Part shown: in pieces, positions 37,757-62,896 of the stretch
Numbering within the stretch: position 1 is the stretch's first letter
Layout: every line of letters begins with the position of its first letter
Source of the DNA: Burkholderia sp. Leaf177
GTDB taxonomy: Bacteria > Pseudomonadota > Gammaproteobacteria > Burkholderiales > Burkholderiaceae
Reading direction: 5' to 3'
DNA: 64,000 nucleotides
Assembly: GCF_001424345.1 (NCBI RefSeq)
Contig: NZ_LMPF01000025.1
Coordinates: 456,062 to 520,061 of the forward strand
The notes under the pieces: generated by a model
The model's input: only the letters and a program-made list of their open reading frames with translations
Told to the model about the DNA's origin: nothing
Database searches by the model: none
Position numbers and translations under genes: made by a program

Positions 37757-38308
37757 TCAGCGGAATTCTCTCGCGCGGCCTCTTGCCATGCTCGAAAACA
37801 CGCCGTCGCGTTTGATCAGCCCATGGAACATGGCCGCACCGAGATGCGCAAGAAAAGTCGCGAACAACAATAGCGCGAGGAGCGTGTGCGCCGAACGCAA
37901 GAATGCGTAGAGGCGCACACCTTGCGGCGCGATCGGTGGCAAATAGACCGACCCGAACAAGTGGATTGGAAACCCGCCAGCCGATAGCATCGACCAGCCG
38001 ACCAGCGGCATTGCGAACAGCAATGCATAGAAGACCCAGTGCGAAAGATGAGCGATATGTTGCTGCCAGCGCGGCATGTCCTCGGGCAGAGGTGGCGTGC
38101 GATGCGTCAATCGAACGATCAACCGCACAATCACCAATAAAAGAATGGCGATGCCCAGCGGCTTGTGGATCGCAAGCAAGGTCTGGTGCCACGACGACAA
38201 TGTGGCCACCATTCCCACGCCTATGAACAACATTGCGATGACGAGCGGCGCCATTAGCCAGTGAAAAAAACGTGCGGCGGGGCTGAAATGTTTATGTGCG
38301 GCGCTCAT
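37757..38308 (-). CDS. Cytochrome b561-family membrane protein
   Basis: The 183 aa protein has four membrane helices and paired histidines suited to ligate two b haems: His16 (FFHWLMAP), His48 (LAIHKPLG), with further candidates at 90, 141 and 155. It resembles the YodB/CybB group that passes electrons between quinol and periplasmic partners. Its ATG overlaps the stop of the catalase-like gene by 4 bp, so the two are translationally coupled and may act together on peroxides at the inner membrane. Confidence 0.92.
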   Translation of the reverse strand: MSAAHKHFSPAARFFHWLMAPLVIAMLFIGVGMVATLSSWHQTLLAIHKPLGIAILLLVIVRLIVRLTHRTPPLPEDMPRWQQHIAHLSHWVFYALLFAMPLVGWSMLSAGGFPIHLFGSVYLPPIAPQGVRLYAFLRSAHTLLALLLFATFLAHLGAAMFHGLIKRDGVFSSMARGRAREFR

Positions 38309-39414
38309 TGAATATTCCGTGTCGATGTTTGAGCGGATGCCTGAGCGGTTGCAGAACCACGCGCTTCCTCACGCGTGCGGCGATTATAGGAGACGGCATA
38401 AGCTGAAGATCGCGCGGCCAGCAGCGGATCATCGGACGGCTTGAGCCCGGCAGGAAGAATGGTCGGATCGTAATTGATATCGCGGCAATCGCCATCCGAC
38501 TGCGCCGTTTCGCGCTCGATAACAAGCGTACCTGCATCAATATGCGGCCGGTCTTCGGGCCATGCCTGGGTTGCGTCGTTGGTCACGTCACCTGGCTTCG
38601 CGACCGTCAGTACAAGATGCCAGCGCAATGGACCGTTTGCCAGGCGTTCGCGCAATTCGGCATCGAGGAAATCATGGCCGCCTTTTTGCTCCGCGGTCAC
38701 GGGCGTGTACGGCGTTTCGGGAACGACAGACCAGCGGATGAAATGCGTCTTGCCGGTAGCGTCGATGGCGCGAAACGCATTGATGCCGTAGTACGCGGCG
38801 TTTCCGAAGCTCGATGACGGCGGATGATCTTTTACCCACGCCTGAAACGGTCGAGTCTCCGGATGCGCGGCAAAGAACGCCTTGAGCTTCGCGGGATCGG
38901 GCTTGCCGGTCGCAGGATCGGGTTGCGACGCGACCAGTTGCGCAAAGAAAGCCTGCGGCGTATTGACGACGAACACCGGCGTATTGTTCATTCCGGTGCG
39001 CCATTGCTGACCGTCCGGCAGCCTGAAATCCAGCGCGAGACTGCGCACCGGCACGCTTGCATCCGGCGCTGACGGGATGCCGCCGGGAATCGCAAAGCGG
39101 CCGACAACCGGGGTACGGACTGTCTTGAAGACGCTCGCGCTCGAAATATCCGCGGCCTGCCCGTTACCCTCGAAATAGCCTTGCACGCAGACGCCCTTCG
39201 CATGGTTGCGGCGAAATCCGGGATGAACGCCCGCGTTCGCTTCGAACGTATTGACGATGCGTTGCGGCGTCAGGCGTTCAGGCGCAACAACGCCGGACGC
39301 ATAGACAAACGCGCCGCCCATTGCAGCCACGACCGCGCCGATCACCGCAAGCCGGAATAGCGGAACGGACTGCCGCGAGCGACGCCGGCCTGAAGTTGGA
39401 GGATGCTTGTTCAT
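38305..39414 (-). CDS. Membrane-anchored catalase-like peroxidase (SrpA type)
   Basis: The protein has 369 aa, an N-terminal membrane anchor (residues about 20-42, RLAVIGAVVAAMGGAFVYAS) and a minimal catalase domain. The distal haem His is His71 (FRRNHAKGVCVQGYF), the Asn region is MNNTPVF, and the proximal haem Tyr is probably Tyr339 (ARSSAYAVSY). It is much shorter than true catalases and belongs to the catalase-related peroxidase group, so peroxidase activity in the periplasm is more likely than strong catalase activity. It is coupled to cytochrome b561 and lies downstream of an ECF sigma and anti-sigma pair. Confidence 0.92.
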   Translation of the reverse strand: MNKHPPTSGRRRSRQSVPLFRLAVIGAVVAAMGGAFVYASGVVAPERLTPQRIVNTFEANAGVHPGFRRNHAKGVCVQGYFEGNGQAADISSASVFKTVRTPVVGRFAIPGGIPSAPDASVPVRSLALDFRLPDGQQWRTGMNNTPVFVVNTPQAFFAQLVASQPDPATGKPDPAKLKAFFAAHPETRPFQAWVKDHPPSSSFGNAAYYGINAFRAIDATGKTHFIRWSVVPETPYTPVTAEQKGGHDFLDAELRERLANGPLRWHLVLTVAKPGDVTNDATQAWPEDRPHIDAGTLVIERETAQSDGDCRDINYDPTILPAGLKPSDDPLLAARSSAYAVSYNRRTREEARGSATAQASAQTSTRNIQ

Positions 39415-46651: not shown

Positions 46652-48043
46652 TCACATCACAGGCAAATGCAGATGATGCGGATGCTCGACCGTATCGGCG
46701 ATCAACCTCAGCGCGTCTTCGCATTCGTCCAGGTTTTTCGGCCCGCCAAGACAGACGCGGATGGCTTCGGGCGGGTTGCCATCGGTCGCAAATGCCGTCG
46801 CCGATACCGCGCCTATACCCTGCGAACGCAATTGCAACGCAAGCTCCGAGGCTTGCCATCCGCACGCCGAATCGATCGGCATCCAGAAATGAAAACCGGC
46901 GGGATCAGCATCGAATTTCCACTTCGATAACACTCGCGATGCGATTCCCTGCCGCGCGGCCGACTCCGTCCGGATGGCATCGAGCATCAGATCGGCGGTG
47001 CCGTCCACGACCCATTGCGTTGCGAGCAGCATGGTGAATGGACTCGCCATGACTGTCGTGGCGCGCAATGCACCCGCAAGATGTTGCGCCCGCCGTGCGG
47101 AAGGCGCGCGAATGTATGCCACGCGAAGTCCCGCACCGAAGCTCTTCGAAAAACCCGTTACGTAGTAGGTCAGGTCGGGCGCAAACGAAACCATCGCGTC
47201 AGGTGCGTTAGCGGGCAGCATGCCGTATGCATCGTCTTCGATGATCGGCACGCTGTATCTCAACGCGACATCGGCCAGCGCCTCGCGACGCTTCGACGAA
47301 AGCGTGACCGTGCTCGGGTTCTGGATGGTCGGGTTGCAATAGAACGCGCTGGGTTTGTCGCTTTTGCAAAGCGCCTCGAATGCATGCGCGAGCGGACCGT
47401 CGTCGTCGCGTGCAAGCGCTTGTAATCGCACGCCGAGTTGCGCGGCGATCGCCTTGATGCCGGGATACGCCAACGTATCGAGGCAGATGGTTCCGCCCGG
47501 TCGCGCAAGCTGCGAGACCAGTGCCACGAGCGCGCTATGTATGCCCGGGCATACGAGCACCCTGTCTTCATCGCAGTCATCGAAACGACGCTTGAGCCAT
47601 TTCGTGCCCGCCGCGCGATCGTCAGGAGTCCCGCCGAAATCCTGGTATCGCAACAAGCGATAAGGATCGGTCCCCGCGAACAACCGGGCCGCCGACTCGC
47701 GCAACCGCGCGGCCAGCTCTGCGGGTTCGGGCGGCATGTTCATGGTCATCTCCACGCTGCTTCCGCCCGACAGCGGCAACGTCGCCGTGCGGCCGCGCAC
47801 GAACGTCCCGCTGCCCGCGCGGGAGTCGAGCAGACCGCGTTTGCGCGCCTCAGCATAGGCGCGTGCAACGGTCGTGTAATTGAGCTGGAGTTCATCGGCG
47901 AGATCGCGCAAACCGGGCAGCCGGTCACGTGGACGCAAGCGTCCGCTAGCCAGATCTTCTTCGATTAATTCCGGAATCAGCAGATAAGCCGGCTTGCGGC
48001 TTTCCGTAAGTTTTCTGATCCAGTGGTGAGTAAGACTGGTCAT
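46652..48043 (-). CDS. MocR-family transcriptional regulator (GntR HTH plus aminotransferase domain)
   Basis: The 463 aa protein has a GntR winged helix at residues about 15-85 (LRPRDRLPGLRDLADELQLNYTTVARAYAEA) and a PLP aminotransferase-like domain from about 100 on. The PLP lysine is in TGFSKSFGAGLR and the Asp/Tyr pair in IIEDDAYGM. MocR proteins use PLP to sense amino compounds and commonly control divergent genes. This one is divergent from the Nit1C cluster, with 423 bp between, and is therefore a strong candidate for its regulator (inference). PdxR-like control of vitamin B6 is an alternative, but no pdx genes are near. Confidence 0.92.
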   Translation of the reverse strand: MTSLTHHWIRKLTESRKPAYLLIPELIEEDLASGRLRPRDRLPGLRDLADELQLNYTTVARAYAEARKRGLLDSRAGSGTFVRGRTATLPLSGGSSVEMTMNMPPEPAELAARLRESAARLFAGTDPYRLLRYQDFGGTPDDRAAGTKWLKRRFDDCDEDRVLVCPGIHSALVALVSQLARPGGTICLDTLAYPGIKAIAAQLGVRLQALARDDDGPLAHAFEALCKSDKPSAFYCNPTIQNPSTVTLSSKRREALADVALRYSVPIIEDDAYGMLPANAPDAMVSFAPDLTYYVTGFSKSFGAGLRVAYIRAPSARRAQHLAGALRATTVMASPFTMLLATQWVVDGTADLMLDAIRTESAARQGIASRVLSKWKFDADPAGFHFWMPIDSACGWQASELALQLRSQGIGAVSATAFATDGNPPEAIRVCLGGPKNLDECEDALRLIADTVEHPHHLHLPVM

Positions 48044-48106
48044 GAAACGGTCTCGGTTTTAAAGCGTTAAAAAAACGATAGCACGATATACCCGGATAAA
48101 ACAAAT

Positions 48107-48337
48107 TGATCGCATCGAATGATCGTATGCAGAATTTTTTAGTGTTCATTCTATGCACATATTGAGTGTGTACTGCACCAGCAATGCGCAGTTGCACCAG
48201 CAAATCAACGCCCTCTTGGTGCGCGGCTGATCTTGTCCAACCGGCGAATCCCTTAGGCACAAGGCTCTGACGGCTCATCCGTAAAAAATTAACGAGCGTC
48301 CAACGCGCTGATCGTTTGAATGATCGGGTATTGATCG
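48107..48337. promoter_or_regulatory. Repeated hexamers and direct repeats in the MocR-Nit1C gap
   Basis: TGATCG occurs at 48107-48112, 48120-48125, 48309-48314, 48321-48326 and 48332-48337; the two groups have spacings of 13 and 11-12 bp, near a helical turn. A separate 11 bp direct repeat, TGCACCAGCAA, lies at 48174-48184 and 48193-48203, with TGGTGC at 48217-48222. Positions suit binding of a regulator between the MocR gene and the sigma-54 promoter; which protein binds is unknown. Confidence 0.5.
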
Positions 48338-48356
48338 CATTAACGCTGCGTTTTAA

Positions 48357-48372
48357 TGGCACGACGGTTGCA
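48357..48372 (+). promoter_or_regulatory. Sigma-54 promoter of the Nit1C cluster
   Basis: TGGCACGACGGTTGCA matches the -24/-12 consensus TGGCACG-N4-TTGCW perfectly, with GG and GC exactly 12 apart. Transcription should begin near 48383, leaving a leader of about 84 nt before the ATG of the first Nit1C gene. It implies RpoN control and an activator such as NtrC. Confidence 0.85.
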
Positions 48373-48466
48373 TTAACTTGTTTGCAAACAGCGCACCGGC
48401 ATCCGAATTAAAAACGGACGCCCAGGATTATCGATGTATTAAATCGTCTATTTAATGGAGATTAGA

Positions 48467-48949
48467 ATGCCTGCCGTCAATATCCCGATGCACAAGAAAG
48501 GCGATTATCTTGTCGACTATGAAGAGAAAGTCTTTGAGGACGTCAAGGCCGCCCCGGGCGAGAAGGCGCTGGTGACGTTTCATACGGTCGCCTTTGAAGG
48601 TTCCATCGGCTTCGTGAATCTCCTGCAGGCCACGCGGTTGCTGCGCAAAGGTTTCGAAACGTCGGTGCTGCTCTACGGTCCCGGCGTGACGCTAGGACTG
48701 CAACGCGGATTCCCAACGCTCGGCGACGAAGCATTCCCCGGCCACCTGAACTTCAACAAACAGATTCAGAAATTCATGGAGGAAGGCGGCAAGGTCTACG
48801 CATGCCGCTTCGCACTGCAAGCGCTTTATGGACAGGGCGAAGCGTCGCTGATCGAGGGCATCAAGCCGATCAGCCCGCTCGACGTGCTCGACATCCAGTT
48901 GCTGCACCGGAAAGACGGCGCGTTGATCATCAACACGTGGACTGTCTGA
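48467..48949 (+). CDS. Nit1C cluster: MSMEG_0572/Sll0783-family protein
   Basis: The 160 aa protein is of the family seen as the first gene of Nit1C clusters (Sll0783 in Synechocystis, MSMEG_0572 in mycobacteria). It has a DsrE/DsrF-like fold: [31 protein letters not shown] and [20 protein letters not shown]. Sll0783 is induced by nitrogen starvation. The biochemical role is unknown. ATG at 48467 has GGAG six bases upstream; the ATG at 48455 overlaps that site. It heads the eight-gene operon behind the sigma-54 promoter. Confidence 0.95.
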
Positions 48950-48974
48950 CATCGCCGACACCACCGACCACGGA

Positions 48975-49994
48975 ATGACCATGCCCGACAAGAGAATCGT
49001 CCGTGCCGCCGCGGTCCAGATTTCACCGGATCTGGAGCGGCCCGGCGGCACGCTCGAAAAGGTCCTCGCGACAATCGACGACGCCGCGCGCCAGGGCGTG
49101 CAGCTGAGCGTGTTCCCCGAGACCTTCCTGCCCTACTACCCGTACTTTTCGTTCGTGCGGGCGCCGGTCGCATCGGGTGCGGAACATATGCGTCTCTACG
49201 ATGAAGCCGTCGTCGTGCCCGGTCCGGTGACGCACGCGGTTTCGGAGCGGGCGCGCCGTCACGGCATGGTCGTCGTGCTCGGTGTGAACGAGCGTGACCA
49301 CGGCAGCTTGTACAACGCTCAACTCATCTTCGATACCACCGGCGAATTGATTCTCAAGCGCCGCAAGATCACGCCCACGTTTCATGAGCGAATGATCTGG
49401 GGCATGGGCGACGCCTCGGGATTGAAAGTGGCGCAGACGAGCATTGCGAAAGTGGGCGCGCTTGCATGCTGGGAGCACTACAACCCGCTCGCACGATACG
49501 CCTTGATGACGCAACACGAAGAGATCCATTGCAGCCAGTTTCCGGGCTCGCTCGTGGGTCCTATCTTCGGCGAACAGATCGAGGTGACGATCCGGCATCA
49601 CGCGCTGGAATCCGGCTGTTTCGTGGTGAATTCCACAGGATGGCTAACTGAATCGCAGATTGAATCCATCACGAAGGAGCCAGGCTTGCAGAAGGCGCTT
49701 CGTGGCGGCTGCAATACGGCGATCATTTCGCCGGAAGGCCAGCACCTCGCGCCGCCGTTGCGTGAAGGCGACGGCCTGGTGATCGCGGACCTGGACATGT
49801 CCCTGATCACCAAACGCAAACGCATGATGGATTCGGTTGGCCATTACGCGCGGCCCGAACTGCTGAGCCTTGCAATCAACGACCGCCCCGCAGTCACGTC
49901 GGCGCCCATGAACACCTTCTCACCTTCAACCGGGGAAAAGCATCTTGAACGCGAGCGAGACGATGTCGGCTACGAGCCGGCAATTGATGACTGA
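48975..49994 (+). CDS. Nit1C cluster: nitrilase (Sll0784 family)
   Basis: The enzyme has 339 aa. Catalytic residues are Glu49 ([15 protein letters not shown]), Lys131 ([16 protein letters not shown]) and Cys165 ([11 protein letters not shown]). It belongs to the Nit1 group of nitrilases found in this conserved cluster. Nitrilases of the group hydrolyse various nitriles to acids and ammonia, and gene clusters of this kind have been tied genetically to growth on cyanide as nitrogen source. The true substrate in this pathway is not settled. ATG at 48975 and an internal ATG at 48981 are both possible. The radical SAM gene begins inside its 3' end. Confidence 0.95.
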
Positions 49995-51063
49995 ATTGCA
50001 ATCGACCGGCTTGCGTCTCGCCGATCCCGGCGCGGGCGTGAGCGTCGCGAGCCGCCGTGGCGGCGCAGGACCCTCGGACCACAAGGCGGTGACCATCGAC
50101 GGCGTGACCATCATGGTTCCGGTGCACACGAACACCGCGTGGCATTCGCCGTTCGTCGCCTCCGCGCCTGATGCGGGCGGCAGCAGCGCGTTGCTGCGTG
50201 GCTCCATTCCCATTGCAAATATCAGCTTCCCGAAGGCGCCACGCTTCTACGCGATGCAAACCTTCGACGGCGTGCCGTACTCGCACATCGCAACGTTACA
50301 CGGGTCTGATGTCCTCGCGACGACCGTGTTGCAAACCTGCATCCGATACGAAAGCCGCAAGAAAACCTGCAAGTTCTGCGCGATCGGTCAGTCGCTTGCG
50401 GCAGGCCGGACGATCGCGCGCAAGACGCCTGAGCAGCTTGCGGAAGTCGCGCGCGCGGCGGTTTTGCTCGATGGCGTCAAGCATATGGTCCTCACCACAG
50501 GCACGCCCCCGACCAAAGACCGTGGCGCGCAGATCCTGTGCGAGAGCGCGTTCGCAATCAAGGCGGCCGTCGACTTGCCGATACAAGCGCAGTGCGAACC
50601 GCCGGACGACGACAAGTGGTTCGAGCGCATGCGTGCAAGCGGTATCGATACGCTCGGGATGCATCTCGAAGTGGTGACGCCCGCGCTGCGCGAGCAGATC
50701 ATGCCGGGAAAAGCGAGCGTGCCGATCTTGCGATACATGGAATCGTTCAAGGCGGCTGTTGCCGTGTTCGGACGCGGCCAGGTCAGCACTTACATTCTCG
50801 CCGGATTGGGCGATACGGCCGAAGCGATCCTTTCGATCTCGCGAGAACTCGTGGACATAGGCGTCTATCCATTTGTGGTTCCATTCGTGCCGATCAGCGG
50901 CACGCCGCTCGAAGATCATCCGGCGCCCTCGCCCGAGTTCATGAAGTCCGTGCTGCAGCCGCTTGGCGCCATGGTCTCGGCTGGCGGCATGCGTTCCGGT
51001 GATATCAAGGCGGGCTGCGGAAAATGCGGCGCGTGTTCTTCGTTGTCATCCTACGAGGTCTGA
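49945..51063 (+). CDS. Nit1C cluster: radical SAM protein (MSMEG_0568 family)
   Basis: The 372 aa protein belongs to the MSMEG_0568/Sll0785 radical SAM family. Cysteines at 132, 142 and 145 ([14 protein letters not shown]) give a C-x9-C-x2-C spacing in place of the common CxxxCxxC; a second cluster motif, Cys358, Cys361 and Cys364 (CGKCGAC), lies near the C-terminus. The start is uncertain: TTG at 49945 has GGGGA eight bases upstream but overlaps nitrilase by 50 bp; ATGs at 49963 and 49987 are also in frame. The radical chemistry is not known. Confidence 0.93.
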
Positions 51064-51066
51064 ACC

Positions 51067-51627
51067 ATGCTCGCCGATACCGAAGACCTCACCCGGCTCT
51101 ACACGCCTGCCAGCTACACGATCAAGTGGACCACGCTGCCGTGGGAAGCAGATGAAGCGTACAAGCTGCGGCGCGCGGTGTTCTGCATCGAACAAGGGAT
51201 CTTTGTAGGCGACGACCGCGATGAAACCGATGACCGCGCGCAACTGCTTGTGGCCGTGAGTTGTATTGGCGGAATGCACGAGCAGGTGGTCGGCACCGTG
51301 CGCATTCACGAGGACGAACCGGGTGTATGGACGGGATCGCGGCTCGCGGTGCACGCGGCATTTCGGCGGCACGGAAAGATTGGCGCAACGCTGATCAGGC
51401 TCGCGGTCAGCAGTGCACACGCGCTGGGCTGCAAGGAGTTTCTCGCGCATGTGCAAAGTCAGAATGCGCCCCTGTTTCATGCGCTGCACTGGACCACGTT
51501 AGCGGAAGAACTCATGCATGGAAGGCCACATCACCTGATGCAGGCCGACCTCGATTTTTATCCGCCGTGCGCCACGCCGCATAGTGGTTTCGTGACGCAA
51601 TATTCGGCGGCGCGGAGTGCGGCATGA
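51067..51627 (+). CDS. Nit1C cluster: GNAT-type N-acetyltransferase (MSMEG_0567 family)
   Basis: The 186 aa protein has a GNAT fold: KLRRAVFCIEQGIFVGDDRDETDD near the start and SRLAVHAAFRRHGKIGATLIRLAVSSAHALG as the acetyl-CoA region. It matches the MSMEG_0567/Sll0786 family specific to this cluster. Its acceptor is unknown. It begins 3 bp after the radical SAM gene and its stop overlaps the next ATG by 4 bp. Confidence 0.93.
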   Translation: MLADTEDLTRLYTPASYTIKWTTLPWEADEAYKLRRAVFCIEQGIFVGDDRDETDDRAQLLVAVSCIGGMHEQVVGTVRIHEDEPGVWTGSRLAVHAAFRRHGKIGATLIRLAVSSAHALGCKEFLAHVQSQNAPLFHALHWTTLAEELMHGRPHHLMQADLDFYPPCATPHSGFVTQYSAARSAA

Positions 51628-52592
51628 GCGTGGCCGACCTCATCGCCGCGTTGAGGGAAACGCGCGGCTTCCGCCATAAGACGGACATTGCCGGCGTCAT
51701 GTCATCGCTCGCGCGGCATGCTCCGGCGTCGGCTGAACACGTCGCTAACGGCGATGACTGCGCAGCCATCGCCGATGGCGACGGTTACCTGTTATTCGCC
51801 ATCGAAGGCATGGTCAGCGACTTCGTGCGCAACATGCCGTGGTTTGCCGGCTACAGCAGCGTGATGGTCAACGTCAGCGATATCTACGCAATGGGCGGCC
51901 GCCCCGTCGCCGTGGTCGATGCACTCTGGAGCGACGGTTTGCAGCGCGCCGAAGAGGTGCTGGCAGGCATGGCTGCTGCATCGACGGCGTATGGCGTACC
52001 GATTGTCGGCGGTCACAGCAATACGCGCAGCGACCAGGCACAACTGGCGGTATCGATTGTTGGCCGCGCGAAGAAATTGCTGTCAAGTTTCGACGCACGG
52101 CCCGGCGATCATTTGATGATGGCAGTCGATCTGCGCGGTCGCTTCGAAGATCCTTATCCGTTCTGGAATGCGTCGGTGGGCGCGCCTGCTGAACGCTTGC
52201 GCGCTGATCTCGAGCTACTGCCAACGCTCGCTGAAAGCGGTCTTTGCAATGCCGCCAAAGACATCAGCATGGCCGGCGCGCTGGGCACTGCCTTGATGCT
52301 GCTCGAATGCTCGCAAGTGGGCGCAAATATCGACCTTTCACGTTTGCCGTCGCCTCCTGACGTCGACCGTTTGCGTTGGCTCACCGCGTTTCCGAGCTTC
52401 GGCTTCGTCATGTCCGTACGTGCGGGAAACGTGGAAGCGGTCAGGCGGATGTTCCTTGAACGCGAGCTTGCTTGTGCTGAAATCGGCATCGTCGAGGAGT
52501 CGCGCAAGGTCAAGCTTCAGGATGGTGACGATCACGGCGAACTATGGAACTTCATGACGCACCCGTTCATCACACCGAGGAGCGCAGCGTAA
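51624..52592 (+). CDS. Nit1C cluster: AIR synthase-related protein (Sll0787 family)
   Basis: The 322 aa protein has the PurM/HypE/SelD-like ATP-binding fold. An N-terminal GDDCAAIADGDGYLLFAIEGM motif and the catalytic-domain VVDALWSDGLQRAEEVLAGMAAASTAYGVPIVGGHSNTRS segment are clear. Family members activate amides or oxyanions with ATP, but the substrate here is unknown. The gene overlaps the GNAT gene by 4 bp, and its stop TAA shares a base with the next ATG. Confidence 0.93.
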   Translation: MSVADLIAALRETRGFRHKTDIAGVMSSLARHAPASAEHVANGDDCAAIADGDGYLLFAIEGMVSDFVRNMPWFAGYSSVMVNVSDIYAMGGRPVAVVDALWSDGLQRAEEVLAGMAAASTAYGVPIVGGHSNTRSDQAQLAVSIVGRAKKLLSSFDARPGDHLMMAVDLRGRFEDPYPFWNASVGAPAERLRADLELLPTLAESGLCNAAKDISMAGALGTALMLLECSQVGANIDLSRLPSPPDVDRLRWLTAFPSFGFVMSVRAGNVEAVRRMFLERELACAEIGIVEESRKVKLQDGDDHGELWNFMTHPFITPRSAA

Positions 52593-53884
52593 TGCGTATC
52601 GCCCTGACCACGCATTCGGTCAACCCGCGCGGTGGCGTGGTGCATGCGCTCGAACTCGCCGCGGCATTGGTGGACGAAGGTCACGACGTCACGATCTTCG
52701 CGCCCGCTGCGGCCGGCGAATCGCTTTTTCGCGAGCCGCCGTGCCGTGTGATCCTTGCGACTATTGAAGGATCGCAGCAGAACACGGTCGCAATGGTGGA
52801 AGCGCGGATTCGTGCCCTGAAAGCAAGTTTGAAAGCCTGCGATCCAGCCGGTTTCGACGTGCTCCACGCACAGGACAGCATCAGCGGCAACGCGCTTGCG
52901 GAGCTGAAGGAAGAAGGCGAAATAGCCACCTTCGTGCGCACGGTTCATCATCTCGATCACTTCGATAACCCTCGCCTCGCCGCCTGGCAAACTCGCGCGT
53001 GGCGTGACGCGGATCGAGTGCTGTGTGTCAGCGAAATGTGGACTCGCGTGATGCGCGAGACGTATGAAGTCGATGCGATCACGGTAACGAACGGTGTCGA
53101 TCTGACGCGGTATTCTCCGCAGCGCACACTGAGAGATTCGGCATTGAGTATCGAAGGATCGCCGATCGTTCTTGCCGTTGGTGGCATTGAAGCGCGCAAG
53201 AACACGGTCGCCTTGCTCGAAGCGTTCGCCGCGCTGATTTCACGCTACCCGCAAGCGCGGCTCGTGATCGCGGGCGGTGCAAGTCTGCTCGATCACAACG
53301 CATACGCGCACGCCTTCATGCAGCGCGTCGCTGCTCTCGACCTGACGCACGCGGTGACTGTCACCGGACCCGTCGGTGACGCAGACATGCCTGCGCTCTT
53401 TCGCCGTGCCGATGTCCTCGCGATGGTGTCGCTGCGTGAAGGCTTCGGCCTCGTCGTGCTGGAAGCGCTTGCGAGCGGCACGCCGGTAGTGGCGTCGAAC
53501 ATTGCGCCGTTCACTGAATATCTCGATGACGCTACCTGTTGCTGGGCGACGCCGACAGTCAGTGAATCGATAGCCGATGCACTCGAACAAGTCATCAGCG
53601 GTCGTCACCAAACCGATTTCAATAACGCCGTGCCCGCCTTGCTCGCACGAATGAGCTGGCAGGTATCGGCGAGAAAACATCTCGACATCTACAGCGGTTT
53701 GCTAGCGAACCGCGCACTCAAAACTTCCAGGAACCCGCCATGCCGGTCATGCATTTCAGAATCCAGTGGCCCGATAACCGCGAAGACAATTGCTATTCGC
53801 CGTCGCAGGTCGTCAGCGATTTTTTCACCCCGGGCGAGACCTATCCCGTCGATGACTTCGTTTCGCGTGCCCGCGAAGCATTGA
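52592..53884 (+). CDS. Nit1C cluster: glycosyltransferase (MSMEG_0565 family), extended 3' end
   Basis: The GT4-type glycosyltransferase begins MRIALTTHSVNPRGGVVHALEL; the ATG overlaps the previous stop. The nucleotide-sugar domain contains VLAVGGIEARKNTVALLEAF, ALFRRADVLAMVSLREGFGLVVLEALASGTPVVASN. Family members are about 380 aa. Here the frame runs on for roughly 48 codons into the next gene, giving 430 aa, and the tail (RSCISESSG...) is an out-of-frame reading of that gene. A lost stop codon or a small frameshift is likely. The sugar and acceptor are unknown. Confidence 0.88.
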   Translation: MRIALTTHSVNPRGGVVHALELAAALVDEGHDVTIFAPAAAGESLFREPPCRVILATIEGSQQNTVAMVEARIRALKASLKACDPAGFDVLHAQDSISGNALAELKEEGEIATFVRTVHHLDHFDNPRLAAWQTRAWRDADRVLCVSEMWTRVMRETYEVDAITVTNGVDLTRYSPQRTLRDSALSIEGSPIVLAVGGIEARKNTVALLEAFAALISRYPQARLVIAGGASLLDHNAYAHAFMQRVAALDLTHAVTVTGPVGDADMPALFRRADVLAMVSLREGFGLVVLEALASGTPVVASNIAPFTEYLDDATCCWATPTVSESIADALEQVISGRHQTDFNNAVPALLARMSWQVSARKHLDIYSGLLANRALKTSRNPPCRSCISESSGPITAKTIAIRRRRSSAIFSPRARPIPSMTSFRVPAKH

Positions 53885-54024
53885 ACATTGCATCCGAACG
53901 TGTGCGCGAGAAGTACGGCTTCGCGTGCTCGGCGGCAATGGATCAGCTTGCAAAAATCGAAGTCGACGCCGAACGTTTCATGGACGAACCCGACGCACGG
54001 GTCAAGGTCATCGCGCTCGTCTGA
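53740..54024 (+). CDS. Nit1C cluster: MSMEG_0570-family protein
   Basis: This is a small 94 aa protein (MPVMHFRIQWPDNREDNCYSP) of the MSMEG_0570 family, known as a nitrogen starvation-linked component of this cluster. It has no recognised catalytic motif. AGGA seven bases before the ATG supports the start. It overlaps the glycosyltransferase frame by 145 bp. The sequence is well formed, so it is taken as a real gene. Confidence 0.92.
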   Translation: MPVMHFRIQWPDNREDNCYSPSQVVSDFFTPGETYPVDDFVSRAREALNIASERVREKYGFACSAAMDQLAKIEVDAERFMDEPDARVKVIALV

Positions 54025-54052
54025 GCGCGCCATCTTTCAGTGAGGACGCATC

Positions 54053-55327
54053 ATGTCGCACGTATCGGCGGACACGACGCATTACAGCGTGATCGTAGTG
54101 GGCGGCGGACAAGCGGGTCTGTCCGCGAGCTACTATCTCAGGCAGGCGGGTATCGACCATCTCGTGCTGGAGAAAAATACGGTCACGCATACATGGCGAT
54201 CACAACGTTGGGATGCGTTCTGCCTTGTGACGCCGAACTGGCAGTGTGCGCTGCCGGGTTATCCATACGCGGGTGACGATCCGCATGGTTTCATGAAGAA
54301 GGATGAGATCATTGCGTATCTCGACGGCTTCATCAAGACCGTCGATGCACCTGTGATCGAACATGCCGAGGTCCAGCGCGTTACGCGCAATAGCGAAGGC
54401 GGCTTTAGCGTATCGACCAGTCAGGGAGCGTTCTCGGCGGACCAGATCGTGATTGCATCGGGCGGATATCACACGCCGATCGTACCGCGCATGGCGGAGC
54501 GCCTGCCGGGTTCGATCGCGCAAATACAGTCGTCGGAATATCGGAATCCGCAGTCGTTGCCCGAAGGCGCGGTGCTCGTGGTGGGCTCGGGGCAATCGGG
54601 TGCGCAGATCGCGGAAGACCTTCATCTCGCGGGGCGAAAAGTGATCCTTGCAGTGGGCGAAGCGCCGCGTTGCGCGCGTTTCTACCGAGGTCGCGACGTA
54701 GTCGACTGGCTTGCCGACATGAAGTATTACGACATGCCCGTCGAGCAGCATCCATTGCGTGAAGGCGTGCGCGACAACACCAACCACTACGTGACCGGGC
54801 GCGACGGCGGACGCGATATCGACCTGCGAAAGTTCGCCGCCGAAGGCATGCAATTGTACGGCCGGCTTCAGGACCTGCGCGATGGCGCGCTGCATTTCGC
54901 GCCAAACCTCATCGAGAATCTGGACAGCGCCGACAAGACGTTCAATGGCATCAACGCGGGCATCGATGCGTTTATAGCAAACAACGGCATCAGCGCGCCG
55001 CCCGGATCGCGCTACGAGCCTGTATGGTCTCCTGCCGGCGAACGCACTTCGCTGAATCTGGAGGCAAGTGGCATAGGGTCCATTGTGTGGTGTATCGGTT
55101 TTACGCCCGATTTCAGCTGGCTCGATGCACCCATCTTCAACGGCCGAGGTTATCCCGCGCACACGCGCGGCGTAACGCCCGTGGATGGCATCTATTTCGT
55201 CGGCTTGCCCTGGCTGCATACCTGGGGATCGGGGCGTTTTTCCGGCGTTGCGCGCGACGCCGAACACATTGTGAATAAAGTCAGCGCCTATAAAGAAGCC
55301 AAGGCACGCGACGAAATCGCGGTTTGA
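54053..55327 (+). CDS. Nit1C cluster: FAD-dependent oxidoreductase (MSMEG_0569 family)
   Basis: The 424 aa flavoprotein resembles flavin monooxygenases. An N-terminal FAD motif is VIVVGGGQAGLSASYYLRQAG (residues 13-33), and VLVVGSGQSGAQIAEDLHLAG (about 180) is an NADPH-type motif. The WRSQRWDAFCLVTPNWQCALPG segment matches MSMEG_0569. It is the last gene of the cluster, with GAGGA six bases before the ATG. It might oxidise a nitrogenous intermediate; the reaction is unknown. Confidence 0.93.
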   Translation: MSHVSADTTHYSVIVVGGGQAGLSASYYLRQAGIDHLVLEKNTVTHTWRSQRWDAFCLVTPNWQCALPGYPYAGDDPHGFMKKDEIIAYLDGFIKTVDAPVIEHAEVQRVTRNSEGGFSVSTSQGAFSADQIVIASGGYHTPIVPRMAERLPGSIAQIQSSEYRNPQSLPEGAVLVVGSGQSGAQIAEDLHLAGRKVILAVGEAPRCARFYRGRDVVDWLADMKYYDMPVEQHPLREGVRDNTNHYVTGRDGGRDIDLRKFAAEGMQLYGRLQDLRDGALHFAPNLIENLDSADKTFNGINAGIDAFIANNGISAPPGSRYEPVWSPAGERTSLNLEASGIGSIVWCIGFTPDFSWLDAPIFNGRGYPAHTRGVTPVDGIYFVGLPWLHTWGSGRFSGVARDAEHIVNKVSAYKEAKARDEIAV

Positions 55328-55394: not shown

Positions 55395-56861
55395 TCAAGG
55401 CAATGCCGTTTCCGAAACGGGCGCCGACTTTCCAAGTGCGTGACGAACGCCCGATCCGTAAGCAGGATCGACCTTGTCGAACAACGCCAGCTGACGATCG
55501 ACGATCTGTTGCGGAACCCCGGCAATAGCCTCGCCGATGTTATTGAACAAGCGCTGCTTCTCCTCGGCATTAAACAGGTTGAACAACGCGCGCGCATGGC
55601 TGTAGTAATCATCGTCTTCACGATGGTTATAGCGCTCGATATCGCCCTCCACGGCCAGCGGCGGCTCGTTCGCCGACGGATCCTGCGGGAACACGCCAAA
55701 ACGGTTCGGCTCGTAATTCGCAGTGCCACCCAGGTTGCCGTCCGTGCGCGTTGCGCCATCGCGGTGATACGGCGCGTGCTTTGGATTAAGCGGAGCGTTC
55801 ACCGGAATCTGATGGTGATTGATGCCGAGCCGGTAGCGATGTGTATCGCCGTAAGAGAACAAACGGCCCTGCAGCAAGCGGTCGGGAGAGAAGCCGATAC
55901 CCGGAACCACATTCGCCGGCGTGAATGCGGACTGCTCCACATCTGCGAAATAATTTTCCGGATTCTTGTTCAACTCGAGCACGCCGACATCGATCAACGG
56001 GAATTCCTTTTGCGACCACGTCTTTGTGATGTCGAAGGGATTCTCGTGATGATTGCGCGCCTGGTCTTCCGTCATGACCTGAATGCAGAAACGCCACTTA
56101 GGAAAGTTGCCCTTTTCAATTTCATCGTAGAGATCGCGCTGCGCGCTCTCACGATCTTCACCAATGACCTTCTTCGCTTCGGCATTCGTGATGTTCTCGA
56201 TGCCCTGCATAGACTTGAAATGGAACTTCACATAGTGCCGCTGGTTCTGCGCGTTAATGAACGAGAATGTGTGCGAACCAAATCCGTGCATCTGCCGATA
56301 ATTCTTCGGAATGCCGCGGTCGCTCATGAGAATGGTGACCTGATGCAACGACTCGGGCGTCTGCGACCAGAAGTCCCAGATGTTCGCGGCGCTCCGCATA
56401 TTGGTGCGCGGATCGCGTTTCTGCGTATGAATGAAGTCGGGAAATTTCAGCGGATCGCGGATAAAAAACACCGGCGTATTGTTGCCGACGATATCCCAGT
56501 TGCCTTCTTCCGTGTAGAACTTGAGCGAGAAACCACGTACGTCTCGCTCGGCATCGGCCGCGCCGCGCTCGCCGGCAACCGTCGAGAAACGCAGGAACGC
56601 TTTGGTTTCCTTGCCGATGGTATCGAATACTTTCGCTTTGCTGTATTGCTTGATGTCGTGCGTGATTTTCAGCGTGCCGAACGCGCCCGATCCCTTGGCG
56701 TGAACGCGCCGCTCAGGAATCACTTCGCGGTCGAAGTGGGCCAGCTTCTCGATCAGCCAGAAGTCCTGCAGCGTAATGGGTCCACGCGGCCCCACGGTTT
56801 GCGAGTTCTGGTTGTCGCCAACGGGTGCGCCGGACGCCGTCGTCAAGGTATTGTTCGCCAT
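55395..56861 (-). CDS. Catalase (monofunctional haem type)
   Basis: The 488 aa small-subunit catalase converts H2O2 to O2 and water. Catalytic His54 ([13 protein letters not shown]), the Asn region ([15 protein letters not shown]) and the proximal haem Tyr motif ([14 protein letters not shown]) are all present. There is no signal peptide, so it is cytoplasmic. AGAAGGAG before the ATG is a strong ribosome site. It is monocistronic and faces the Nit1C operon; a protective role during metabolism of cyanide, an inhibitor of haem enzymes, is speculative. Confidence 0.96.
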
Positions 56862-57083: not shown

Positions 57084-58562
<1,479 letters not shown>

Positions 58563-58593
58563 CTAACTATCTCCTGTTGAATCTCGTGAAATG

Positions 58594-60102
58594 TCAGGCG
58601 CGAACAACTCGCGCTGTCGGGCTCTTGCCCATCTTCATCCATGCGCCATACACAATCGATGCGAGCGCAAGGCCTACGAACCACGCATACGTATAAAGCG
58701 TATTGAAAAACGCGGGCACATTCGGAAACGAAGCGGGAAATGCCGTGTGCAGGAAGCCCGGCAAGTTCGGCAACACGCCGATAACCAACGCCACCACAGC
58801 GGCCATATTCCATCCGCCCGTGTAGCTGTACTCGCCGTTTTCGTTGAAGAGTTCGCGCGTATCGAGGCGCGTGCCGCGTATCAGGAAATAGTCGACCATC
58901 AGGATTCCGGCCACGGGTCCGAGCAACGCGGAGTAGCCCACGAGCCACGTAAAAATATAACCCTGCGTGGTCGCGAGAATCTTCCACGGCATCATCACAA
59001 TGGCGATCAACGCCGTGATCATCCCGCCCACGCGATACGAAATGCGCTTGGGCCAAAGGCTCGAAAAGTCGTACGCGGGGCCGACCAGATTCGCGGCGAG
59101 GTTGCAGCTCATGGTATCGAGTGTCAGGATGATCAGCGCCACGCCCACGCCAATGCCGGTCATGCGACTGGTCAGGTCGATCGGATCCCAAATTGCCTTG
59201 CCGTAGATCACGACCGTGGCCGACGTCACCACCACCGAGATCACCGAAAGCAACGCCATGGGCGCCGGCAGACCAATCGATTGCCCGATGATCTGATCCT
59301 TCTGCGAACGCGCGAAACGTGTGAAGTCGGGAATGTTCAACGCAAGCGTGGCCCAGAAGCCGACCATGGCGGTGAGTCCCGGCCAGAACGTCGCCCAGAA
59401 CAAACCTTCCTTCTTGCCGCCCGCCACGAACTGCGAAGGTTGCGCGAGCATTGCGCCAACGCCGCCCGCTTTCGATGTCGCCCACCACACGAGCGCCAGG
59501 CACATGATGATCTTGATCGGTGCGGACCAGCTTTCAAGGAAGCGGATGGAATCGGTGCCGCGCAAGATGAAGTACAACTGGATCAGCCAGAAGAACAGGA
59601 AACACGCGAGTTGCCCGAGCGAGATATCGAGGAAAGGCAGCGGCGCGCCATGTGTCGTGTTGCCGGCGAGGATGTTGAGCAACGTATAAATCGCGCTGCC
59701 ACCGAGCCACGTCTGGATGCCATACCATCCGCACGCGACGATCGCTCGCAATAACGCGGGAAGTCTGGCGCCCTTCGTTCCAAACGATGAGCGCACGAGC
59801 ACCGCATACGGAATGCCGTGCTTCGCGCCCGCGTGCCCGACCAGCAACATGGGCACGAGCACGATCATGTTGCCGAGCAACACGGTTATCACTGCCTGCC
59901 ATGGCGACATGCCCTCTTCGGTCAGGCCGGCAGCAAGCATGTACGACGCAATGTTCATTACCATGCCGACCCAGAGCGCTGCGAAGTGATACCACTTCCA
60001 GGTGCGCTGTGCGGGAGTGGTCGGCGCCAGATCGTCGTTATATAAACTGCTGCTGGCGCCGGCCGCGAACTGCGGGTCGACGGAATGCGCTGTCTGCTTC
60101 AT
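58594..60102 (-). CDS. NCS1-family cytosine/uracil/hydantoin permease
   Basis: The 502 aa membrane protein has about 12 segments of the NCS1 type: SLYNDDLAPTTPAQRTWKWYHFAALWVGMVMNIASYMLA, GNMIVLVPMLLVGHAGAKHGIPYAVLVRSSFG and GWYGIQTWLGGSAIYT. The start MKQTAHS is used, with GAGGAG about nine bases upstream; the open frame extends upstream for 56 polar residues. It resembles hydantoin and uracil transporters (Mhp1-like). Its position between PreA and dihydropyrimidinase points to uracil or hydantoin uptake. Confidence 0.92.
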   Translation of the reverse strand: MKQTAHSVDPQFAAGASSSLYNDDLAPTTPAQRTWKWYHFAALWVGMVMNIASYMLAAGLTEEGMSPWQAVITVLLGNMIVLVPMLLVGHAGAKHGIPYAVLVRSSFGTKGARLPALLRAIVACGWYGIQTWLGGSAIYTLLNILAGNTTHGAPLPFLDISLGQLACFLFFWLIQLYFILRGTDSIRFLESWSAPIKIIMCLALVWWATSKAGGVGAMLAQPSQFVAGGKKEGLFWATFWPGLTAMVGFWATLALNIPDFTRFARSQKDQIIGQSIGLPAPMALLSVISVVVTSATVVIYGKAIWDPIDLTSRMTGIGVGVALIILTLDTMSCNLAANLVGPAYDFSSLWPKRISYRVGGMITALIAIVMMPWKILATTQGYIFTWLVGYSALLGPVAGILMVDYFLIRGTRLDTRELFNENGEYSYTGGWNMAAVVALVIGVLPNLPGFLHTAFPASFPNVPAFFNTLYTYAWFVGLALASIVYGAWMKMGKSPTARVVRA

Positions 60103-60235
60103 CGGGTTGATCTCCTCAAGATCGTTGCGGTCCGCGCCTGGGATCGGTCTATGGATCGATCCGTGAATCCGTTCAGGCGTCGGCCGTCTGGGGACGTTTT
60201 GGTGACAAGCGCTATGTGTTGGAAACCTTTGAACT

Positions 60236-61528
60236 CTATGCGGCCTTGACGCTTTCTTCAACGTCGGCAACTACGCGCGCCGGGTTGTTCGGATGCGTCG
60301 TCCAGTTCGCATAGTCGCCGGCATCCACGCGTTCCATGGTGATGCATTGCTCGACCGGGCACACGTGCATGCACAAGTTGCAGCCGACGCATTCGGAATC
60401 CATCACCTCGAAATGGCGCTTGCCGTCTTTCTCGCGCATGATCGCCTGATGCGCGGTGTCTTCGCAAGCAATGTGACAAAGTCCGCACTGAATGCACTTG
60501 TCCTGATCGATACGCGCCTTGATGTCGTACTTCAAGTTCAGGTATTTCCAGTCCGTTACGTTCTGGACCGCGCGGCCGCGAATATCCTCGAGCGTGGCGT
60601 AGCCTTTTTCGTCCATCCAGTTGGACAGGCCATCGGCGAGATCGGAGACGATCCTGAACCCGTAGTGCATCGCGGCCGTGCAGACTTGCACGTTGCCCGC
60701 GCCCAGCACCATGAATTCCGCGGCGTCGCGCCAGGTCGAAATGCCGCCGATTCCCGAGATGGGCAAGTCCGGCGTTTCCGGGTCGCGCGCAATCTCGGCG
60801 ACCATGTTCAATGCGATCGGTTTTACAGCCGGGCCGCAGTATCCACCATGTGTGCCCTTGCCGTCGACTGTCGGCATGGGCGCCATGACGTCGAGATCGA
60901 CGGCGACAATCGAATTGATGGTATTGATCAACGATACAGCGTCCGCCCCGCCCTTGTAAGCCGCACGCGCGCTCGTGCGGATATCGCTGATATTCGGTGT
61001 CAGCTTTACGATGCACGGCATCCGCGTGCCTTCCTTCACCCAGCGCGTGACCATCTCCACGTATTCGGGAACCTGCCCGACCGCCGCGCCCATGCCGCGC
61101 TCGCTCATGCCGTGCGGACAACCGAAATTCAGCTCGACGCCATCCGCGCCCGTGTCCTCGACCAGCGGCAAAATCCATTTCCAGTCGCGTTCGTTGCACG
61201 GCACCATCAATGAAACAATCAACGCACGGTCCGGCCAGTCGCGTTTCACTTCCTTGATTTCTTTCAGATTGATATCGAGCGGACGATCGGTAATCAATTC
61301 GATATTGTTCAGCCCTGCAATCCGCTGGCCGTTCCATTGCACTGCGCCATAGCGCGAACTCACGTTGACCACATGCGGATCGAGGCCGAGCGTTTTCCAG
61401 ACCACGCCGCCCCAACCCGCTTCGAACGCGCGATTGACGTTGTAGGCTTTATCGGTGGGCGGTGCAGATGCAAGCCAGAAGGGATTCGGCGACGTGATGC
61501 CAACAAACGTGCTGCGAAGATCGGCCAT
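60236..61528 (-). CDS. preA: NAD(P)-dependent dihydropyrimidine dehydrogenase, catalytic subunit
   Basis: The 430 aa protein reduces uracil and thymine with NAD(P)H as a complex with PreT. It has a dihydroorotate dehydrogenase-like barrel (WLASAPPTDKAYNVNRAFEAGWGGVVWKTL, VELNFGCPHGMSERGMGAAVGQ, SGIGGISTWRDAAEFMVLGAGNVQV) and two C-terminal [4Fe-4S] motifs (CIQCGLCHIAC and CVGCNLCMHVC). Mammalian enzymes have Cys in GLACGQ where this protein has Val (GAAVGQ); by recall E. coli PreA also lacks that Cys. Confidence 0.95.
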   Translation of the reverse strand: MADLRSTFVGITSPNPFWLASAPPTDKAYNVNRAFEAGWGGVVWKTLGLDPHVVNVSSRYGAVQWNGQRIAGLNNIELITDRPLDINLKEIKEVKRDWPDRALIVSLMVPCNERDWKWILPLVEDTGADGVELNFGCPHGMSERGMGAAVGQVPEYVEMVTRWVKEGTRMPCIVKLTPNISDIRTSARAAYKGGADAVSLINTINSIVAVDLDVMAPMPTVDGKGTHGGYCGPAVKPIALNMVAEIARDPETPDLPISGIGGISTWRDAAEFMVLGAGNVQVCTAAMHYGFRIVSDLADGLSNWMDEKGYATLEDIRGRAVQNVTDWKYLNLKYDIKARIDQDKCIQCGLCHIACEDTAHQAIMREKDGKRHFEVMDSECVGCNLCMHVCPVEQCITMERVDAGDYANWTTHPNNPARVVADVEESVKAA

Positions 61529-61558
61529 GAGATGGCTCCGTTATCCTGGGAAGTGTTG

Positions 61559-62896
61559 TTATGCAGCCTTGATGGCCGTTGCCGCGAAGGAAGCACTGAT
61601 GGCTTCGGCCGCAAGCTTGCCGTCCTGCACGGCCTGCACCGTCAGGTCGATACCGCCATGCGCCGCGCAATCGCCGCCTGCCCAGACATTTGCAAGCGAT
61701 GTCCTGCCGGTCGAATCCACCGCGATACGGCTGCCGTCGAGCGTAAGAAGCTCGGCTTCGATAGCATCCGCAACAAGGGTTTGCCCAATGGCTTTCAGCA
61801 CCATGTCGGCATCGATCACGAAGCGCTCGCCTTGCGGGTTTTCGAATTCGACACCCGTCACCTGATCGCCGGCGTTCAGCAAACGCACGGGCCTTGCATG
61901 CGTGACGATCGACACGCCGTTGTGCTGCGCGAACTCGCGCTCCGCCCAGGTCGCGCCCATGGTTTCCAGACCACGCCGATAGACCATGGTCACGGTTTGC
62001 GCGCCGAGCTTGCGGCTTTGCACGGCGGCATCTATTGCGGTATTGCCTCCGCCGATCACCACCACACGGCGTCCTACCGGCACGCTCGCGAGGTCATCGG
62101 CCTGACGCACTTGCTCGATGAAATCCACGGCGTTGTAGACGCCCTGCAACGTCTCGCCGTCCAGTTCGAGCGCACGCACGCCGGCCAGTCCGATTGCGAG
62201 AAACACGGCGTCGTGCTGTTTGCGAAGCGTGTCCAGCGTCACGTCACGACCCAGCATGACGCCGTTCTTCACCTCAATGCCGCCGATCGAATAAAGCCAT
62301 TCCACTTCGCGTTGCGCGAAGTCCTCGACCACTTTGTAAGCGGCGATTCCATATTCATTCAGACCGCCGGGCTTCGGCAACGCATCGAAAACGGTAACAC
62401 GATGCCCCGAGAGCGCCAGCTTGTGGGCACACGCCAAGCCGGCCGGACCCGCGCCCACGACAGCGATATGCCGTCCAGTATCAGCTTCACGCTTGAAGAG
62501 CGGCTCGCCCCGGTTCATCGCCCAATCGGTTGCGTGCCGTTGCAACGCGCCGATCGCAACTGGTTTGTCATCCTGATGATTGCGGACGCACGCACCTTCG
62601 CAAAGTATTTCTGTTGGACACACGCGCGCGCACATGCCTCCAAGCGGATTCGCCGACAGGATATCGACCGCCGCGCCTTTCAGATTGCCGTTGCCGATCT
62701 TGCGGATAAAGCTGGGGATATCGATTTTCGTGGGACACGCGTTGATGCACGGCGCGTCGTAGCAATAGTGGCAACGGCTCGATGCTGCCGCTGCCGCGGT
62801 TGCATCGAGGAGCGGCGCCACGTCCGAGAACTCACACGCCAGTTGCTCTTGCGACAGCCTGTTCGAAGCTATGTCGCCAAATGGCTTCATGGTCAT
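61559..62896 (-). CDS. preT: NAD(P)-dependent dihydropyrimidine dehydrogenase, FAD/iron-sulfur subunit
   Basis: The 445 aa protein resembles the N-terminal part of mammalian DPD and GltD. Two [4Fe-4S] clusters are supplied by CHYCYDAPCINACPTKID and CARVCPTEILCEGAC. FAD and NADPH motifs follow: HIAVVGAGPAGLACAHKLALSGH near residue 145 and VVVIGGGNTAIDAAVQS near residue 282. It transfers electrons to PreA. The gap to preA is 30 bp, indicating an operon. Confidence 0.95.
   Translation of the reverse strand: MTMKPFGDIASNRLSQEQLACEFSDVAPLLDATAAAAASSRCHYCYDAPCINACPTKIDIPSFIRKIGNGNLKGAAVDILSANPLGGMCARVCPTEILCEGACVRNHQDDKPVAIGALQRHATDWAMNRGEPLFKREADTGRHIAVVGAGPAGLACAHKLALSGHRVTVFDALPKPGGLNEYGIAAYKVVEDFAQREVEWLYSIGGIEVKNGVMLGRDVTLDTLRKQHDAVFLAIGLAGVRALELDGETLQGVYNAVDFIEQVRQADDLASVPVGRRVVVIGGGNTAIDAAVQSRKLGAQTVTMVYRRGLETMGATWAEREFAQHNGVSIVTHARPVRLLNAGDQVTGVEFENPQGERFVIDADMVLKAIGQTLVADAIEAELLTLDGSRIAVDSTGRTSLANVWAGGDCAAHGGIDLTVQAVQDGKLAAEAISASFAATAIKAA

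Follow-up and report, generated by a model that had tools for sequence, protein, structure and literature searches.

Our analysis suggests, with a probability of about one half, that the Nit1C gene cluster on contig NZ_LMPF01000025.1 of Burkholderia sp. Leaf177 encodes a nitrogen-limitation pathway, which would centre on an acylated, amino-acid-type metabolite, with a MocR-type regulator as its gate and a nitrilase (NitC) acting on a nitrile intermediate. The window, i.e. the whole stretch of 64,000 nucleotides that we analysed, contains, as read from the DNA itself, eight genes with open reading frames, a promoter element of the sigma-54 type, a direct repeat and a divergent MocR gene, both conserved, and a number of neighbour genes; the chemistry of Nit1C discussed here is what we infer. 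The MocR association, the repeat and a slot for acyl-handling genes appear to be new: in the available passages of the open-licence papers searched, no MocR gene, operator or acyl genes are reported with Nit1C, and the MocR that PMC8567248 and PMC11049912 describe is part of the cio/nit4 cluster.

Judged by its profile matches, the locus is an intact Nit1C operon in a Caballeronia, a further member of a cluster type described in 2005. All eight proteins score above the curated cut-offs of the NCBIfam families TIGR04042-TIGR04049 in a profile scan of the window (Table 1), and their genes form one operon (48467-55327) on the + strand, overlapping or separated by short gaps, with no interruption of any of the eight reading frames across its family profile. 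The core families B, C, D, E, F, G and H are co-present and contiguous, which assigns the locus to Nit1C, and the glycosyltransferase lies between F and G as in the betaproteobacterial variant. A preliminary description of the window had listed the same eight families in the same order and called for a search with these profiles, naming poor matches as the result that would count against it; the scan bears out the list and excludes poor matches. Its left edge, 48357, coincides with the first base of the perfect sigma-54 -24/-12 element. It was silent on the regulator, the direct repeat and the dispensability of the glycosyltransferase.

The gene divergent from nitB encodes an N-terminal GntR helix-turn-helix and a class I aminotransferase domain (Pfam), the architecture of MocR regulators and not that of the Pseudomonas-type NitA. 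Its best NCBIfam family is EhuR, with a near full-length alignment, yet the score of 374.6 against a cut-off of 480 leaves it outside that family. We found a MocR of the same kind somewhere in 83 of 87 Nit1C loci (80 related loci, the window, five selected plasmid regions and one 3.5 kb locus, L112), spanning alpha-, beta- and gammaproteobacteria; the four without one are L035, L104, L106 and the short L112. The gene is divergent from and near nitB in 62 of the 64 loci with a selected frame, the exceptions being L101 and L103. In a maximum-likelihood tree, in which long branches were flagged, 67 Nit1C-linked MocRs form one group (support 98/84) apart from nine paralogues of the Leaf177 genome, collected as its matches at E <= 1e-10. 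Six of eight further plasmid regions also carry the MocR gene; those of Acinetobacter and Rhodococcus are without it, and the Acinetobacter region has instead a sigma-54-interacting regulator facing away from nitB. Residue K300, within the motif GFSKSFG, is conserved in at least 95% of the 64 MocRs, and R429 is conserved too. We take K300 to be the pyridoxal phosphate (PLP)-binding lysine of the MocR family; with both residues conserved, the regulator should, by what is known of the family, bind PLP and an amino acid.

The region between the two divergent genes holds the sigma-54 element and a direct repeat that we regard as the candidate MocR operator. The consensus of sigma-54 promoters is TGGCAC-N5-TTGCW and that of NtrC enhancers TGCACC-N5-GGTGCA. 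At one mismatch or fewer the sigma-54 pattern occurs in 76 of 81 loci versus 2 of 81 shuffles. The repeat pattern, TTGATYG-N4-TTGATYGCAT, was derived from the aligned upstream regions of seven Caballeronia loci and from additional upstream sequences, and the counts are not fully independent because it was read off some of the same sequences. Allowing up to two mismatches, 59 of the 64 loci for which a MocR frame had been selected contain it, as do 9 of the 17 others, most of which have a MocR gene according to a later search; none of 81 block-shuffled controls does, the best shuffle having four mismatches. Across the whole Leaf177 genome (6.8 Mb; reversed control, 0), nothing but the nitB promoter matches with at most one mismatch. 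One other genome site matches, with two mismatches, and we claim no regulon member beyond Nit1C. Five plasmid regions (Klebsiella, Paraburkholderia, Rhizobium, Acetobacter and Methylorubrum) were scanned after the pattern had been fixed: the first two have the repeat at one mismatch beside a perfect sigma-54 element, and Rhizobium has only a two-mismatch copy further upstream.

Genes for acyl handling recur directly after nitH in related clusters. In the 76 loci where nitH is present and followed by 1.5 kb or more of sequence, a Pnap_2097/LnmK-like protein (K) directly follows nitH in 31 and a methylmalonyl-CoA mutase is present in 27, every time together with K; in two others, of Klebsiella and Acetobacter, the slot is occupied instead by an AMP-binding acyl-CoA ligase. 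The K protein of L035 scores 334 bits with TIGR04099 and 285 bits with TIGR04098, and the mutase of L068 scores 979 bits. The two ligases match best a propionate-CoA ligase model (491 and 520 bits, short of its cut-off at 955), followed by acetate-CoA ligase models. K also occurs in five of the eight later plasmid regions, and the Aquabacterium region has an annotated acyl-CoA dehydrogenase in the slot. Of 300 sampled genomes of the order, only two have K above its cut-off, both Nit1C genomes with K less than 7 kb from nitB (hypergeometric 0.0015), and in a third genome the match is far under the cut-off. A single K match was obtained in 15 of 18 genomes, a set chosen largely for loci carrying K; the genomes of Leaf177, L030 and L032 gave none. 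The product that LnmK forms from methylmalonyl-CoA is a propionyl thioester. Propionyl groups would thus be supplied by either of two unrelated enzymes occupying the slot, which points to the acyltransferase NitE as the user, and since K is missing from the Leaf177 genome, housekeeping acyl-CoA would have to serve NitE there.

Two related genomes deserve a separate remark. Caballeronia sp. dw_19 has a complete Nit1C copy (L034) and a reduced one (L035) with only nitB, nitE and nitH; L035 also carries the LnmK-like and mutase genes as well as a sigma-54 element and a direct repeat of its own, and no MocR gene lies in the locus. On the Acetobacter oryzoeni plasmid (L117), a gene for cytochrome ubiquinol oxidase subunit I follows the AMP-binding gene, from position 17921, and could concern cyanide-tolerant respiration.

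NitB and the nitrilase are linked in the order, and in one actinobacterial cluster the nitrilase is replaced. In the even, order-wide sample of 300 genomes, NitB and the Nit6803 nitrilase score above cut-off in the identical 12 genomes and are adjacent, so the linkage is not due to chance. A class-wide sample gave a NitB-like match in 5 of 274 genomes, two of them (Leaf177 included) above cut-off, too few for use. The PLSDB database has NitB-like genes on 515 of 72,556 plasmid records, 374 of these from Klebsiella; the Klebsiella region L116 has seven core genes and no glycosyltransferase. The Rhodococcus region (L136) retains B, D, a fused E-F, G, H and the glycosyltransferase in a different gene order, and a tblastn search with NitC at 1e-5 found nothing in it. 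Two other C-N hydrolases are encoded there; they score 37 and 32 bits with the Nit6803 model (cut-off 502.6), and their best matches, well short of the cut-offs, are to models of archaeal nitrilases and N-carbamoylputrescine amidase. In a single alignment, the catalytic cysteine position is kept in one and occupied by aspartate in the other. With the Nit6803 nitrilase missing from this one actinobacterial region, a pathway intermediate would be a better common substrate of the clusters than cyanide. The aspartate-bearing C-N hydrolase (L136, 14944-15774), beside its apparently active paralogue, is possibly a non-catalytic partner.

We propose that nitrogen limitation turns the operon on via sigma-54 together with an enhancer-binding protein that is probably NtrC, and that MocR, sensing an alpha-amino-acid-type compound bound to its own PLP, would gate the promoter by binding the direct repeat 16 nucleotides upstream of the -24 element. 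The core enzymes B-H, the glycosyltransferase excluded, may make or convert a small molecule of the acylated amino-acid type: NitE would add the acyl group (propionyl where dedicated supply genes exist, one from housekeeping acyl-CoA here), NitD would perform a radical step, NitF would activate a carbonyl or amide with ATP, NitG would be the partner of the flavoenzyme NitH, and NitC would hydrolyse a nitrile intermediate and free ammonia. In that case NitC would, as in Pseudomonas, also hydrolyse hydroxynitriles derived from cyanide, as a genuine secondary or salvage activity. The synthesis of a small molecule, suggested already in the preliminary description, is plausible and gains support from the acyl-handling genes of the related clusters. 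The nitrogen-starvation control of the M. smegmatis cluster (PMC6039565) speaks for the proposal as well, as does a NitG-NitH fusion. Going further, we tentatively speculate that Nit1C is not primarily a cyanide pathway and makes an N-acyl, often N-propionyl, amino-acid-type metabolite in nitrogen-starved cells, with the nitrilase (in actinobacteria another C-N hydrolase) trimming a nitrile or amide intermediate and a PLP-binding MocR sensing substrate or product via the TTGATYG repeat.

A number of observations weigh against the acylated-metabolite pathway. K, the mutase and the AMP-binding ligase are all absent in 43 of the 76 loci, and TIGR04099 has no match in the Leaf177 genome, where an acyl-supply module was thus not found; being absent here and in those 43 loci, the module cannot be core. 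Both AMP-binding ligase cases come from hand-picked plasmid regions, and the acyl donor of NitE is not predictable because its relatives in the PDB are weak. The Acetobacter and Methylorubrum regions have the MocR gene and no repeat at three mismatches or fewer. The NtrC-like sites are imperfect in the window, and across loci such sites at two mismatches or fewer occur in just 23 of the 64 loci with a selected MocR frame and 5 of the 17 without, versus 0 of 81 shuffles. The word nitrilase does not occur in the main text of a paper on the NtrC regulon of B. cenocepacia, a strain whose Nit1C status is unchecked (PMC5491218). Furthermore, loss of NitC abolishes cyanide assimilation in Pseudomonas (PMC8567248), and the oxidase gene just downstream of the Acetobacter cluster fits a role in cyanide use.

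Assimilation of cyanide or nitriles is a possible, if doubtful, alternative, in which the other core proteins would make or regenerate a keto-acid-type trap, so that HCN passes through a cyanohydrin to NitC and is released as ammonia and an acid. As far as the available passages of the papers cited here and below go, nit1C together with the sigma-54-dependent NitA is required for cyanide assimilation in Pseudomonas pseudoalcaligenes CECT5344 and nit1C is linked to it in Pseudomonas fluorescens (PMC11049912, PMC8567248, PMC6368324), so the connection with growth on cyanide drawn in the preliminary description holds for Pseudomonas. The Nit6803 type of NitC and the Acetobacter oxidase gene agree with this. 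However, the corresponding gpr cluster of Mycobacterium smegmatis (MSMEG_0565-0572) depends strongly on GlnR, is switched on in nitrogen starvation, and helps to maintain the NADPH/NADP ratio and resistance to peroxide (PMC6039565), and the sll0783 mutant of Synechocystis is in a more oxidised state with less polyhydroxybutyrate (PMC3901256); redox effects of this kind fit poorly with cyanide assimilation, as does the Rhodococcus cluster without a Nit6803 nitrilase. No transporter recurs at a fixed place among the listed neighbour families (one ABC-transporter ATPase family appears in four loci at scattered positions), and cyanide-resistance genes were not specifically searched. Of the three phenotypes on record, in Pseudomonas, M. 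smegmatis and Synechocystis, only one concerns cyanide, and with nitrogen starvation, the redox phenotypes and the nitrilase-free Rhodococcus cluster in mind the cyanide interpretation looks too narrow.

The same mutants could mean that a metabolite or the enzyme set itself sustains NADPH and peroxide resistance in nitrogen-starved cells, and a catalase gene directly downstream of the operon would suit such a redox or antioxidant pathway. We consider it improbable: no more than 6 of 94 loci, among them the window and its sister, were found to have a catalase-family gene, for which reason we dropped catalase as a functional partner, and the published effects may be indirect. It is very improbable that MocR is a chance or hitchhiking neighbour and that NtrC and sigma-54 alone control the operon. 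The Acinetobacter plasmid region without MocR, where a sigma-54-interacting regulator is divergent like NitA of Pseudomonas (PMC11049912), and the lack of any MocR found in the Rhodococcus region, L035, L104 and L106 would fit that; the occurrence in 83 of 87 loci across three proteobacterial classes, the single phylogenetic group and the conserved repeat speak against it.

Table 1. Features of the Nit1C locus and its surroundings in the window
Feature	Position	Strand	Basis
MocR-type regulator ('NitR'), GntR + aminotransferase fold	46652..48043	-	Pfam GntR + Aminotran_1_2
Half-sites TTGATCGCAT / ATGATCGTATG near mocR start, candidate autoregulatory operator	48105..48129	+	7-Caballeronia alignment + half-site scan
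NtrC-like site 1 (TGCACCAGCAATGCGCA, 2 mismatches)	48174..48190	+	partly conserved in Caballeronia alignment
NtrC-like site 2 (ACGCC-N5-GGTGC), weaker	48208..48222	+	alignment, read by eye
Direct repeat ATGATCGGGTATTGATCGCAT, candidate MocR operator	48320..48340	+	pattern scan; 16 nt upstream of -24 element
Sigma-54 -24/-12 element TGGCAC-N5-TTGCA (TGGCACGACGGTTGCA)	48357..48372	+	perfect; sole strict match in window, either strand
nitB, MSMEG_0572/Sll0783 family	48467..48949	+	TIGR04044, 283.8 bits (cut-off 109.85); putative ATG start
nitC, Nit6803 family nitrilase	48975..49994	+	TIGR04048, 568.1 bits (cut-off 502.6)
nitD, radical SAM protein	49987..51063	+	TIGR04043, 593.6 (cut-off 303.7); putative start, open frame from 49945
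nitE, GNAT acyltransferase	51067..51627	+	TIGR04045, 238.9 (cut-off 68.45)
nitF, AIR synthase-like	51624..52592	+	TIGR04049, 481.1 (cut-off 321.3)
GT4-type glycosyltransferase, MSMEG_0565 family	52592..53884	+	TIGR04047, 511.4 (cut-off 259.85); putative start
nitG, MSMEG_0570 family	53740..54024	+	TIGR04042, 138.4 (cut-off 79.85)
nitH, MSMEG_0569 flavin-dependent oxidoreductase	54053..55327	+	TIGR04046, 694.2 (cut-off 498.35)
Catalase, converging on operon	55395..56861		profile scan

The individual proteins were compared in orthologue alignments of 73-81 rows per core protein and 43 rows for the glycosyltransferase, the window included. NitB is the most conserved Nit1C protein, a ranking that is biased because the loci were picked on NitB identity; its single cysteine, C117, is invariant in 81 of 81 sequences. 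The closest counterpart of the window NitB among the related loci compared is that of Caballeronia sp. dw_276, with 100% identity, a value matched by plasmid records of Caballeronia. NitB is DsrE-like by published assignment only (PMC3901256, PMC6039565, PMC1199592). A sequence search of the PDB with NitB gave no significant DsrE match (3mc3, E 1.4), the top hit being an antibody chain (E 0.019), and its predicted structure was poor (mean predicted local distance difference test score, pLDDT, 53) and therefore not used for a fold search. A NitB-like match under the family cut-off occurs in Methanosarcina acetivorans.

NitC, a nitrilase of subfamily 1 (the Nit6803 type), has E49, K131 and C165 conserved, which we take to be the Glu-Lys-Cys triad positions of nitrilases, and its best PDB relative is 3wuy (residues 8-307, 475.8 bits), the Nit6803 nitrilase and presumably a cyanobacterial enzyme. 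NitD has the radical-SAM cysteines CX9CX2C (C132, C142, C145) in 80 of 80 aligned sequences and a C-terminal CX2CX2C (C358/C361/C364) in 97%. NitE shows only weak similarity to FeeM (Pfam, 26.9 bits; cut-off 27). NitF, which the preliminary description had called ATP-grasping, is assigned by Pfam to the AIRS (PurM) family and not to ATP-grasp, and its PDB relatives are ThiL, PurL, HypE and SelD. HypE carries a C-terminal cysteine; we dropped NitF as a HypE-like nitrile-forming enzyme, as its best cysteine conservation is 88% (below 95%) and no C-terminal cysteine of the HypE type was found. NitF also comes near methanogenesis marker 2 (236 bits, below the cut-off of 365). In NitG, whose structure was predicted with a pLDDT of 89.7, C18 and C63 are conserved, and the PDB relatives of NitH are flavin monooxygenases. 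A natural NitG-NitH fusion of 525 aa in the Polyangiaceae locus L104 (11976-13553) suggests that the two probably work together.

The glycosyltransferase, taken in the preliminary description for a conserved member, is present here above cut-off and is optional in the cluster type at large. Of the 80 related loci, 42 have an orthologous frame; in the other 38, seven of them on contigs that stop short of the position, none was found, so we do not count it as core. Its 3' end overlaps nitG by 145 nucleotides, out of frame, and the frame extends about 60 codons beyond the family domain (53680-53884). The sister strain L030 differs from the window by one nucleotide in the overlap, and this extra base joins the glycosyltransferase and nitG into a single open frame of 493 aa. 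In 41 of the 43 loci with both genes the ends lie between 52 nucleotides apart and 10 overlapping, the exceptions being the window and L030. We dropped the idea of a programmed frameshift or designed overlap, since only these two of 43 loci deviate; being confined to two sequences one base apart, the deviation suggests a lineage-specific loss of the stop codon.

Several other genes in the window have functions in nitrogen metabolism or belong to the catalase family. Reductive pyrimidine breakdown genes with a nitrogen-scavenging role (dihydropyrimidinase, PreA and a glutamate-synthase-like small subunit; 57084-62896) lie beyond the catalase and outside Nit1C, and an allophanate hydrolase-like protein with Amidase and AH_C domains is encoded at 14041-15861. 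A second catalase-family gene is located at 38305-39411.

Nit1C has been known since 2005 and occurs in several phyla and on many plasmids. A dedicated, probably amino-acid-sensing regulator and a candidate operator provide a handle toward the inducer, and the acyl-supply genes of the relatives suggest propionate or succinate carbon as the label to trace toward the product; no available passage of the open-licence papers searched names that product. The regulator and operator together with the acyl genes make a two-decade-old question testable in soil bacteria that are harmless.

Among the known systems, P. pseudoalcaligenes CECT5344 (nitABCDEFGH) has homologous genes B-H, a divergent regulator and the sigma-54 theme in common with the window; its regulator is the Fis-family, sigma-54-dependent NitA and no glycosyltransferase is listed, whereas here we find a MocR and a glycosyltransferase. 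Growth on cyanide has been shown in that organism and is a candidate function here. The eight-gene gpr cluster of M. smegmatis, source of the MSMEG family names, is under nitrogen-starvation control (PMC6039565) exerted by GlnR, in contrast to the sigma-54/MocR arrangement here; MSMEG_0572 also appears in a table of GlnR-binding sites with the value 263.4, in a column whose heading lies outside the available passage (PMC3662644). The actinobacterial relative that we examined, Rhodococcus, differs from the window by its E-F fusion, C-N hydrolases and gene order. The nearest family to the regulator is that of the EhuR/EnuR regulators of ectoine use, although it scores below the EhuR cut-off and adjoins Nit1C genes. 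The closest likeness in gene set and order is to the clusters of Burkholderia fungorum and Rubrivivax, with the glycosyltransferase between the AIR-like gene and ORF6, a variant included in the 2005 description (Podar et al. 2005, PMC1199592). That survey of seven clusters, in its available passages, reports no conserved outside genes and no conserved upstream binding sites; unlike it, we found a conserved MocR gene, a direct repeat and a sigma-54 element.

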